From Sphingomonas sp. (GTDB taxonomy: Bacteria; Pseudomonadota; Alphaproteobacteria; Sphingomonadales; Sphingomonadaceae), in the NCBI GenBank assembly GCA_025356055.1, contig JANXUU010000150.1, positions 1-42,255 of the forward strand: a stretch of DNA of 42,255 nt, in the 5' to 3' direction. The notes beneath the pieces are model-generated. The model worked only from the letters and a program-made list of their open reading frames with translations, was not told the origin of the DNA and ran no database searches. Numbering within the stretch: the stretch's first letter is position 1; each line of letters starts with the position of its first letter. The translations under genes were made by a program, and so were the position numbers. Positions 1 to 3,111 of the stretch are shown piece by piece.

Positions 1-1
1 G

Positions 2-1012
2 CGCGCCGGGGTGATCTTCCTGTCGATCTCGGAAGCGATCCGCGAATATCCGGAGCTCATCAAGAAGTATCTGGGCTCAGTCGTCCCGCAGCGCGACAAT
101 GTCTTCGCCTGCCTCAACGCGGCGGTCTTCTCCGACGGGACGTTCGTGCACATCCCCGAGGGCGTCCGCTGCCCGATGGAATTGAGCACCTATTTCCGCA
201 TCAATGCCGAGAACACCGGCCAGTTCGAGCGCACTTTGATCGTCGCCGAAAAGGGCAGCTATGTCAGCTACCTCGAAGGCTGCACCGCCCCGATGCGCGA
301 CGAGAATCAGCTCCACGCCGCGGTCGTTGAAATCTTCGCGCACGAGGACGCCGAGGTGAAATACTCGACTGTCCAGAACTGGTATCCGGGCGACGCGGAA
401 GGGCGGGGCGGTATCTTCAACTTTGTCACCAAGCGGGCGCTGTGCAGCGGTGCGCGGAGCAAGGTCAGCTGGACCCAGGTCGAGACCGGCTCCGCGATCA
501 CCTGGAAATATCCGTCGTGCATCTTGAAGGGCGAGGGCAGCGTCGGCGAATTCTATTCGGTCGCGCTGACCAACAATCGCCAGCAAGCCGACACTGGCAC
601 CAAGATGATCCACATCGGGTCCAACACCCGCTCTACGATCATCTCGAAGGGGATCAGCGCGGGGCGCTCGAACAACACTTACCGTGGGCTGGTGCGGGTG
701 TTGCCGGGCGCCGAGAATGTCCGCAATTTCACCCAGTGCGACAGCTTGCTGCTCGGGTCCGAAAGCGGCGCGCACACCGTCCCCTATATCGAGGTCAGGA
801 ACCCGACCGCGACGATCGAGCATGAAGCGACGACCAGCAAGATCAGCGACGACCAACTCTTCTACGCCCAGGCCCGCGGGCTGGACACGGAAAGCGCGGT
901 TGCCCTGATCGTGAACGGCTTCGCCCGCGAAGTGCTCAAGCAACTCCCAATGGAATTCGCCGTGGAAGCGCAGAAGCTGCTGGGGATTAGTCTTGAGGGG
1001 AGTGTAGGGTGA
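2..1012 (+). CDS. sufB: SufB, Fe-S cluster scaffold subunit (5' end outside window)
   Basis: C-terminal 336 codons of SufB, the core of the cytosolic SufBCD scaffold on which Fe-S clusters are built. The frame is open to the left edge, so about 140-150 N-terminal residues lie outside. The text follows SufB closely: [16 protein letters not shown] near the start, [25 protein letters not shown], the [14 protein letters not shown] block and the end [20 protein letters not shown]. The Cys in the FTQCDS motif, which matches the cysteine implicated in cluster assembly in E. coli SufB, is present. No intein is seen in this part. The stop overlaps the next start as GTGA, so the downstream ORF is probably translationally coupled. 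Confidence 0.97.
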
Positions 1013-1398
1013 AGGCCAACAAGTACGTTCTGGCAGCATCGGTCATTTTGGTGGCGCTTCCCACGATCGCCAGCGCTCGTAGCCCAAAGATGTCCGACGC
1101 AGACATCGAATGGTACGCTACAGGTATTGCCTACAAACAATGCGCAATTTCTAAAGCCGCCCGATTCGAATCCTCCGGGGAATCCCCACAGGACATAGCC
1201 GTTGCCGCTTTGACGGCATGCAAAGCTATCCGCGAGCATCTGTTGGAACAGATACAATCCCGCATCAAACATGACCATCCCAACTTCAGCCTACAAGATC
1301 AATTCCGTGTCGCAAAGATAGCAATCGAAGGCACCGACACCGATAGAATAAATGATGCCAAGTTAGCGGTGATTCAAGCAAGGTCGCGAAAACACTAA
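1009..1398 (+). CDS. Small exported protein of unknown function inside the suf operon
   Basis: A 129-aa protein I do not recognise. It starts with a typical Sec signal (KANKY, then a hydrophobic stretch [17 protein letters not shown], cleavage likely after ASA). The mature part is polar and probably helical, with two cysteines (YKQCAIS and LTACKAI) that could form a disulfide. The GTG start is supported by a strong GAGGGGAG Shine-Dalgarno 6 nt upstream and by a GTGA overlap with the sufB stop; its own TAA overlaps the sufC ATG by one base. Base composition is visibly more AT-rich than its neighbours, suggesting acquisition. A periplasmic product is odd within a cytosolic Fe-S assembly operon. 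No function is assigned. Confidence 0.75.
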
Positions 1399-2240
1399 TG
1401 CTCAAAATTGAAAACCTCTCCGCCACCGTCGCTGGCAAGCCAATCCTCGACGGCTTGTCGCTGACCGTCCCGGCGGGCGAAATCCATGCGATCATGGGGC
1501 CCAATGGCGCGGGCAAGTCGACGCTCGCCTATGTGCTCGGCGGGCGGCCCGGGTATGAGGTGACGGGGGGCACGGTGACGTTCACCGCTGCTCGTCATCA
1601 CGGGCTTGAGCCGGGACCCACCTTGTTGGGAGAACAGGGCGAAGGCAAATGGGTCCCGGGTCAAGCCCGGGATGACGATGGTGGGGCGGTCGATCTTCTA
1701 TCCCTCGCGCCGCACGAGCGCGCTGCCGCGGGGCTGTTCCTCGGCTTCCAGTATCCGGTCGAAATCCCCGGCGTGTCCTACCTCCAGTTTCTGCGCGAAA
1801 GCCTCAATTCGCAACGTCGGGCGCGCGGCGAACCCGAACTCAGCGGTGCCGAATTCATCCGCCTTGCGAAAGCGCAGGCGGCGCTGCTCGGGATGGACCC
1901 CGACATGCTCAAGCGCCCGGTCAACGTCGGCTTCTCGGGCGGCGAAAAGAAGCGCGCCGAGATGGTTCAGATGGGCATCATGGCGCCCAGGCTCGCGATC
2001 CTCGACGAGACCGACAGCGGGCTCGACATCGACGCGCTCAAGGCCGTCGGTGCCGGAATCAATTCGATCATGCGCGCGCCCGACAAGGCGGTGTTGCTGA
2101 TCACTCATTATCAGCGCCTGCTCGACTATGTTCGCCCCGACCGGGTGCACGTGCTCCGCGCCGGGCGGATCGAACGTTCGGGCGGCCCCGAACTCGCCCA
2201 CGAGCTCGAACGCGAAGGCTATGCCGAGGTGGCGGCGTGA
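1398..2240 (+). CDS. sufC: SufC, Fe-S assembly ATPase, with an in-frame insertion
   Basis: ABC-type ATPase of the SufBCD complex, which drives conformational change during Fe-S cluster assembly. Walker A GPNGAGKST is at residues 34-42, the Q-loop in LFLGFQYP (Gln about 118), signature FSGGE, Walker B LAILDE and the H-loop in LLITHYQ. At 280 aa it is about 30 residues longer than usual SufC (about 250). The excess lies between Walker A and the Q-loop, about residues 64-97, where the family has only a short link between the TVTF strand and the DLL segment. DNA for residues 66-94 is an 85-bp palindromic element listed separately. All catalytic motifs and the frame are intact, so the protein is probably functional with an extra surface loop. 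Confidence 0.95.
   Translation: MLKIENLSATVAGKPILDGLSLTVPAGEIHAIMGPNGAGKSTLAYVLGGRPGYEVTGGTVTFTAARHHGLEPGPTLLGEQGEGKWVPGQARDDDGGAVDLLSLAPHERAAAGLFLGFQYPVEIPGVSYLQFLRESLNSQRRARGEPELSGAEFIRLAKAQAALLGMDPDMLKRPVNVGFSGGEKKRAEMVQMGIMAPRLAILDETDSGLDIDALKAVGAGINSIMRAPDKAVLLITHYQRLLDYVRPDRVHVLRAGRIERSGGPELAHELEREGYAEVAA
1593..1677. repeat. 85-bp palindromic repeat element inside sufC
   Basis: Two 28-nt arms, 1593-1620 and 1650-1677, are reverse complements at 26 of 28 positions and are separated by 29 nt. The arm core reads GGGCTTGA.CCGGGACCCA, a motif recalled as common in intergenic palindromes of sphingomonad genomes. Here the element sits within the sufC reading frame without breaking it and adds about 29-32 residues. 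It is comparable in principle to Rickettsia palindromic elements, which also insert in frame into protein genes. In mRNA it could form a long, stable hairpin. Confidence 0.9.
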
Positions 2241-2255
2241 TGCGCGCGGGGCACT

Positions 2256-2374
2256 TCCTCCCCTCCTCGAAGAGGGAGGGGACCGAGGGGTGGGTTCGCA
2301 CGTCTGTGCGCTTCAATGACTCCTCGACTGCCGAAGAACCCACCCCCGTTCCCTCCCTGGAAGGGAGGGGAGGA
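2256..2374. repeat. Two-hairpin inverted repeat between sufC and sufD
   Basis: The sufC-sufD gap holds two G/C-strand-biased arms. The left arm (about 2256-2297) and right arm (about 2336-2374) match in inverted orientation over TCCTCCCCTCC and over the GGGGGTGGGTTC part. Each arm also folds on itself; the right arm has a perfect 7-bp CCCTCCC/GGGAGGG stem with a TGGAA loop at 2351-2369. The right arm ends at the sufD ATG, so its AAGGGAGGGGAGG serves as the sufD ribosome binding site. Likely a REP-like mobile palindrome; effects on sufD translation or mRNA stability are inferred. Confidence 0.8.
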
Positions 2375-3111
2375 TGACTGCCCTCCCGACGCGCAAGCTC
2401 GAAGCCTATCGCTACGCCGACATCGACGCGCTGGCGTTGGTGTGGAGCGACCTTTCGCCGCCTCAAACGATCGCAATTGCCGCCCGGCAAAAGCTTCAGC
2501 AAATCTGGTTGCCGAGCGCCGGCGACGTGCAAATCCGCCGCGTCGAACTGACCGTCCGCGAACGCGCATCGGCGAGCATCTTCGCGCTCAACACCGCGTC
2601 GCGTTATGGCCGGATCGAACTCGACGTGCGCCTGCACGAAGGCGCGCATTTCGCGTTTCACGCCGCCAATATCGGCGCGGGCAAGGCAACGCTCGAAATC
2701 GTCACCACCGTCCGCCACCTTGCGCCCTCGGCAACCTCGCGCCAGGTCGTCCGCAGCGTGCTCGGCGGCAAGGCGACCGGCACCTACCTCGGCAAGGTCG
2801 CCGTCGCCCGCGACGCCCAGCACTCCGACAGTGAACAATCGATCAAGGCCATGCTGCTCGACCGCGGCGCAACCGCCAATGCCAAGCCCGAACTCGAAAT
2901 CTACGCCGACGACGTCAAGTGCGCCCACGGCGCGACCGTCGGCGAACTCGACCGCGAGCAATTATTCTATGCCGCCGCGCGCGGAATGGACCCGGCCTCC
3001 GCTCGCGCCCTCCTTCTCGAAGGCTTCATCGGTGGCCTGTGGAACGATATCGACGGCGACGATGACGGCATCCCGGTCCTTGCCCGCGCCGCCCTGAAGG
3101 CGATCGCATGA
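2374..3111 (+). CDS. sufD: SufD, Fe-S cluster assembly scaffold partner
   Basis: A 245-aa SufD-type protein, paralogue of SufB and partner in the SufBC2D complex. It is shorter than E. coli SufD (about 420 aa), as in many alphaproteobacteria, keeping mainly the beta-helix core and C-terminal helical part. Diagnostic segments are KLEAYRYADI near the N terminus, the conserved KCAHGATVGELD motif with the histidine that corresponds to the functionally important SufD His, and EQLFYAAARGMDPASARALLLEGF at the C terminus. The ATG follows the purine-rich right arm of a palindromic element that acts as Shine-Dalgarno. It overlaps sufS by ATGA. Confidence 0.93.
   Translation: MTALPTRKLEAYRYADIDALALVWSDLSPPQTIAIAARQKLQQIWLPSAGDVQIRRVELTVRERASASIFALNTASRYGRIELDVRLHEGAHFAFHAANIGAGKATLEIVTTVRHLAPSATSRQVVRSVLGGKATGTYLGKVAVARDAQHSDSEQSIKAMLLDRGATANAKPELEIYADDVKCAHGATVGELDREQLFYAAARGMDPASARALLLEGFIGGLWNDIDGDDDGIPVLARAALKAIA

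Follow-up and report, generated by a model that had tools for sequence, protein, structure and literature searches.

Palindromic repeats of several families at one point of SufC in the Sphingomonadaceae

REPINs are inverted pairs of REP units with a spacer and go with RAYT transposases, and Rickettsia palindromic elements (RPEs) are spread over many genes. The CGTC REPs described by Di Nocera, De Gregorio and Rocco (2013, PMC3733652) carry a CGTC (or TGTC, CCTC) tag, an 8-9 bp stem, a 4-5 nt loop and a CCA tail; according to the parts of that paper covered here, they are mainly alphaproteobacterial, often form inverted dimers and lack a dedicated transposase. The same parts record that S. alaskensis and E. 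litoralis have CGTC or GTAG REPs inside genes, treat RPE-6 and RPE-4 as equivalent to CGTC-1 and CGTC-4, respectively, of R. conorii, and report same-site REP insertion for recB of two Xanthomonas species only.

Here we analyse a palindrome in the sufC gene of a Sphingomonas draft genome, within a stretch of 42,255 nucleotides (the window). With REPINs the element shares the inverted REP pair and the spacer. As an in-frame palindrome within a conserved protein it also resembles RPEs but, in a comparison of described properties, it differs in that RPEs occupy many genes and the inserts studied here one place in sufC. With CGTC REPs (PMC3733652, as far as covered) it shares the CGTC tag, the short stem with a 4-5 nt loop, the CCA tail, the dimers and the intragenic copies; in contrast to the recB case in two Xanthomonas species, however, one site in sufC holds about eight families, several of which are not CGTC REPs. 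A preliminary description of this DNA had likened the insert to RPEs, which holds at the level of the superfamily, since RPE-4 and RPE-6 fall within the CGTC group; its view that known sphingomonad palindromes are intergenic was too strong, given the intragenic copies cited above. In-frame capture of REPs is thus known, and what seems to be new is the repeated capture of unrelated families at the same site. We found no published report of a palindrome hot spot in SufC in the open-licence literature, a search that covered PMC3733652 apart from its list of intragenic REPs (Additional file 3), which could name SufC.

The sufC insert and its operon

The features of the window that the analysis rests on are as follows.

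1..1012, + strand: 3' part of sufB, the gene upstream of sufC (TIGR01980, 495.3 bits over 11-1009)
1398..2240, + strand: sufC, 280 codons with an in-frame insert (TIGR01978, 308.2 bits; split match to E. coli SufC)
1584..1691, + strand: the insert, residues 63-98, 36 codons replacing 3 of uninserted relatives (Walker A-to-FQ comparison)
1593..1620, + strand: left REP unit, CGTC tag outward and CCA tail inward
1621..1649, + strand: spacer between the REP units, 29 nt
1650..1677, - strand: right REP unit, inverted (arm and consensus match)
2374..3111, + strand: sufD, the gene downstream of sufC (TIGR01981, 177.9 bits, under the cut-off of 222)

Gene order runs from the sufB part through a 129-residue orphan ORF to sufC, the sufD-like gene and a last gene that we take, by eye, to be cysteine desulfurase-like. 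SufC is identified by its TIGR01978 score, against a cut-off of 212.8, and by these suf operon neighbours; a Foldseek search with the modelled protein returns E. coli SufC structures as the best matches. For the sufD-like gene, TIGR01981 is the best model, at a score under that model's cut-off. The orphan ORF (1009-1398), between sufB and sufC, has a signal-peptide-like start by eye and gave no match in NCBIfam or Pfam at E 0.001. The sufC-sufD spacer of the window holds a second long hairpin (2256-2374; -79.4 kcal/mol, z -4.7), with an ungapped palindrome score below 15. Spacer palindromes scoring above 15 occur in 20 of 167 relatives, and 12 of these 20 are insert carriers.

Aligned to E. 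coli SufC, residues 1-63 and 98-276 match and the stretch between them does not; HMM and PDB matches likewise split around residues 64-97, and the reading frame stays open through all 280 aa. The distance from Walker A to FQ is 74 residues, against 41 in uninserted relatives, a net gain of 33 aa that bears out the roughly 30 residues first proposed to be read through in frame. The replaced position consists of three codons between the V-x-F strand and D-L-L. From general ABC anatomy we take Q118 to be the Q-loop residue, which places the insert between Walker A and the Q-loop.

The inverted-repeat arms (1592-1620 and 1650-1678) are 29 nt each, 27/29 (93%) complementary and 29 nt apart; trimmed to 28 nt they match at 26/28 positions, as in the preliminary description. 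On its own, either arm also forms a small palindrome (in the right unit, TCCCGGG-CTTGA-CCCGGGA), so that the element is better described as two REP units in an inverted dimer than as a simple hairpin. The right unit pairs well, and the two differing bases lie in the left unit. One consensus fits both arms (shuffling the window 100 times gives an expected 0.00 matches), with CGTC at the outer end of both units and, judged from sequence, an 8-9 bp stem, a 4-5 nt loop and a tail fitting CCA.

The arm recurs elsewhere in the 2.52-Mb draft genome, as had been anticipated, at low copy number: five further hits with at most 3 mismatches fall in four other places, against 0 for the reversed control. 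All four look intergenic on inspection of ORFs. One of them, at C136, is a dimer whose spacer is about as long as that of the window element, and the other three hold one unit at this mismatch limit. Genome repetition and inverted-dimer organisation are thus both as in CGTC REPs. A match to Y1_Tnp (PF01797), the RAYT-type transposase expected of a REPIN/RAYT system, was sought in the draft genome (97.42% complete) with 0 found, the control search being positive in 5 of 14 genomes; in this the element differs from REPINs. An Rfam search returned 10 matches at E <= 1, every one under its gathering score.

AlphaFold2 recovers the SufC fold (mean pLDDT 79.6) and gives insert residues 67-94 values below 50, between strands 53-63 and 97-99. 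In this model the insert forms the tip of a beta-hairpin, is disordered and lies at the protein surface. At the RNA level, a hairpin within the sufC transcript is predicted: positions 1577-1693 fold at -76.1 kcal/mol (z = -8.34), and none of 200 shuffles is equally good. It could be this mRNA hairpin that is maintained, through an effect on stability or translation along the suf operon, and besides the very stable predicted fold in the window, pairing between the two flanks is stronger in carriers (-17.1 kcal/mol) than in uninserted genes (-14.6 kcal/mol). Yet a gene's own left and right flanks do not pair significantly better than exchanged ones (p = 0.10, flank co-adaptation test), and in the Sphingopyxis insert L186 the stem has decayed with the peptide largely kept. 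We regard this role as quite unlikely.

One position and many palindromes

In a survey of 397 genomes of the family, 380 had a SufC match at E <= 1e-60 and 17 did not. Inserts are present in 37 of the 380 (about 9.7%), the window's genome included, and all 37 were read (the window, L133-L147, L177-L193 and L194-L197). Carriers were called by a best E <= 2.4e-111 together with a match running through the insert; the other 343 genomes have a best E >= 1.8e-101 (E-values from the complete per-genome table, extents among the matches listed) and were counted as uninserted from this match pattern, one of them, G143, being a fragment that does not reach the site. Among 70 uninserted loci fetched, 66 were readable by motif search, which missed 4, and all 66 are of ordinary length. 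The preliminary description had expected close relatives to lack the segment, and it is absent from all ten congeners read. It had also weighed the case that most sphingomonad SufC proteins carry the segment with no palindrome in the DNA; about 90% of the family's SufC proteins are without the segment, and 39 of 44 distinct inserts score as inverted repeats above all 200 shuffles. The observation is thus confirmed and its extent is larger than was claimed, and the interpretation then given is supported. The five remaining inserts are L186 (p 0.01), L026 (0.015), and L181, L187 and L183 (0.10-0.16).

The 44 distinct inserts come from family genomes and database loci together, four duplicates having been dropped; the comparison set holds 129 distinct SufC without an insert and 2 whose loop is short. 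The best 80 relatives from the database, a biased set because the pattern used for the search came from the insert, divide into 11 genes with long inserts, 2 with short ones and 67 with none. All 44 inserts lie at one identical point of SufC. Sorted by motif in a scheme of our own, they fall into eight palindrome families: B (16 inserts; motif CCGTTCGTGCTGAGCCTGTCGAAG), C (9; motif CCCCGGCGAAAGCCGGGG), A, the CGTC type of the window (6), D, E and H (3 each), and F and G (2 each). Family H may be a variant of A, which would make seven. The genus g54 alone carries inserts in 7 of 10 genomes, and these seven span six families. In locus L197 (genome G369), a second palindrome is nested inside an E element within the coding sequence, giving 50 extra residues. 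Locus L030 has a short loop without a palindrome at the insert site, perhaps a scar.

We note that in two uninserted genes of genus g29 (L156 and L209) the strand end and turn usual in other genes give way to LNF-LNF, which has the look of a 9-nt duplication at the insert site.

To look beyond the family, 387 genomes of the class, of which 6 belong to the family of the window, were judged by best E-values; 269 lay above the SufC cut-off and 118 were hardly informative. No palindrome carrier was seen outside the family in this set, in which seven odd-scoring genomes were looked up and L215-L218 read; this is weak evidence. L215 is without an insert, L218 ends at a contig edge, and the Walker A pattern was not found in L217. 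L216 (about 1487-1520; genome G705, from another family of the class) has a 7-base tandem repeat, AATCACG three times, at the SufC site, with the frame broken in the draft genome; it may be a phase-variable tract or an error.

These data point to a place in a core gene where palindromic repeats land again and again. We put the probability at roughly 0.55 that the SufC loop is a permissive site at which palindromes recurrently land and are exchanged. A translated inverted dimer of CGTC-type REPs would occupy the beta-hairpin tip in the window; the loop would accept some 24 to 50 additional residues, probably disordered, and this tolerance would be the main reason why inserts persist; palindromes of about eight families would have entered it, and could nest, decay or be replaced. 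Alternatively, the DNA itself might steer palindromes to this codon, as a transposase target or as a site of replication slippage or template switching. The single point used by all 44 inserts and the few cases of nested palindromes speak for such a mechanism, which the different ends of the eight families, the variation of the uninserted DNA at the site across species and the absence of a Y1_Tnp transposase from the window's draft genome nevertheless make unlikely. That no mobilising enzyme was found, Y1_Tnp being absent from the draft genome, counts against the landing-site reading as well.

Descent and shared flanks

Carrier status was mapped on a sufC tree of 176 rows with the insert columns removed (a quick search on one gene, with carriers over-represented by choice). 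It needs 32 changes, 16 of them forced by well-supported branches. Shuffled carrier labels need 39.4 on average, and 0 of 500 shuffles as few as 32, so there is some clustering by clade. The window's clade (13 rows) nevertheless contains three carriers from families A, B and D, and L193, with a family C insert, is only 1.4% apart from L171, with three plain codons, in the compared part of sufC. The L039 insert resembles that of L193. The presence of the insert in L193 may reflect a gain by transfer or, equally well, a loss in L170 and L171.

With carriers scattered on the tree and sisters differing, a single ancestral insert with vertical descent was rejected as the whole story. Its extended form, in which one ancient insert was lost many times and its palindrome changed by decay, could draw on the clustering and on the flank codons common to carriers. 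However, each loss would have to restore three ordinary codons, yet a short leftover loop occurs in only 2 of 175 distinct genes, and unrelated palindrome families sit inside one genus; we hold it to be highly improbable.

The residues next to the insert differ between carriers and uninserted genes. The second residue after F is P in 33 of 44 carriers and G in 126 of 129 uninserted genes, and the residue before DLL is I/V/L/M in 43 of 44 carriers and Q, E or A in 98 of 129 uninserted ones. In 44 matched pairs, CTC encodes the first Leu of DLL in 17 carriers whose partner lacks it, against 1 pair with the reverse; at the third Leu, where the alternative is often Met, CTC favours carriers by 21 to 3, and GGG does so by 17 to 2. 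As 21 codon features were tested, only the strongest are trustworthy. The stretch 18-54 nt right of the insert shows no carrier sharing (0.23, against 0.25 shuffled), which argues against a simple haplotype.

The shared flank codons hint that insert-bearing segments also spread by short-tract recombination, by which the stretch probably moves between species; selection on the flanks is the alternative. These codons and the likeness of L193 and L039 leave it unproven that every insertion was independent. For the landing-site reading the flanking residues of carriers are awkward, since independent insertions need not produce a lost turn, with P as second residue after F, or I/V/L/M before DLL. 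A tentative variant, which we would not favour, makes the hairpin tip a selected cassette site: an old long-loop sufC allele would be traded from species to species in very short recombination tracts, with unrelated palindromes swapped repeatedly because the long loop or the mRNA hairpin tunes iron-sulfur assembly.

Frequency, translation and tolerance

LptB, a fellow ABC ATPase, gives a broken match in none of 149 genomes (best matches span nearly the whole model, E 3.8e-110 to 1.9e-104), 13 of which have the SufC insert. In 800 kb from three genomes of g54, a carrier-rich genus, 42 palindromes lie outside genes called by a home-made heuristic and 33, mostly weak, inside. A few strong ones stand in frame in real genes, among them two in locus L228 (genome G053).

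L228 15843-15920: family C-like palindrome, in frame, in a presumably NAD(P)H-hydrate dehydratase-like protein (named by eye)
L228 7085-7157: family C-like palindrome, in frame, in a class V aminotransferase

The aminotransferase was considered as a second hot spot and rejected: of 16 relatives aligned (20 fetched, 4 filtered out), the congener G129 alone has the insert. In-frame capture occurs elsewhere too; of the three genes compared, SufC alone has so far shown recurrence at one site.

As a rough noncoding yardstick, 20 palindromes were counted over 15,068 nt of sufC-sufD gaps, in a sample where carriers are over-represented. Applied to a target of 9 nt in each of 380 genomes, and with reading frame ignored, this density predicts about 4.5 palindromes, against 37 genomes observed, a number inflated by kinship; the 16 forced tree changes exceed the expectation too. 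Passive tolerance, which predicts near-noncoding density, looks a little short as the sole explanation of insert frequency, and this excess counts against the landing-site reading.

Of the 44 inserts, 35 would also be open in frame +1 and 8 in frame +2, so openness alone is weak evidence. Synonymous changes exceed others in 4 of 5 comparable insert pairs, as expected if the insert is translated. The synonymous to nonsynonymous counts are 9:2, 14:6 and 12:7 in three Sphingopyxis pairs, which share sequences and are not independent, 8:7 in L193-L039 and 2:4 in L063-L071. Judged by these substitutions, the Sphingopyxis pairs would fit a translated and constrained peptide, L193-L039 would fit weakly and L063-L071 would not; the insert peptide is probably made. 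The weak or missing constraint in L193-L039 and L063-L071 is a further point against the landing-site reading.

Taken together, frequency and constraint raise the possibility that a long hydrophilic loop is useful to SufC, in docking, ATPase regulation or stress sensing, with palindromes as a handy in-frame source. Selection would then account for an insert frequency above the noncoding yardstick and for the T/R/S-P and I/V/L residues that carriers share beside the insert, and the few amino-acid changes in Sphingopyxis inserts would follow. Against this, unrelated sequences would have to serve one job, about 90% of the family, close sisters included, manage with no insert, the loop is modelled as disordered, and constraint is weak or missing in 2 of 5 pairs. 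We consider such usefulness possible but doubtful, and a benefit to cells is unproven.

Small palindromes are mostly viewed as intergenic passengers. In the core gene sufC, gains or losses of such elements have occurred many times at a single codon. The palindromes at this codon come from unrelated families and close relatives are still uninserted, which provides natural before-and-after pairs. Such pairs of carriers and non-carriers bear on how palindromes enter proteins, on whether such loops are neutral or of use to the cell, and on the speed of turnover, at an insertion point of SufC that nature has already tried with many sequences.
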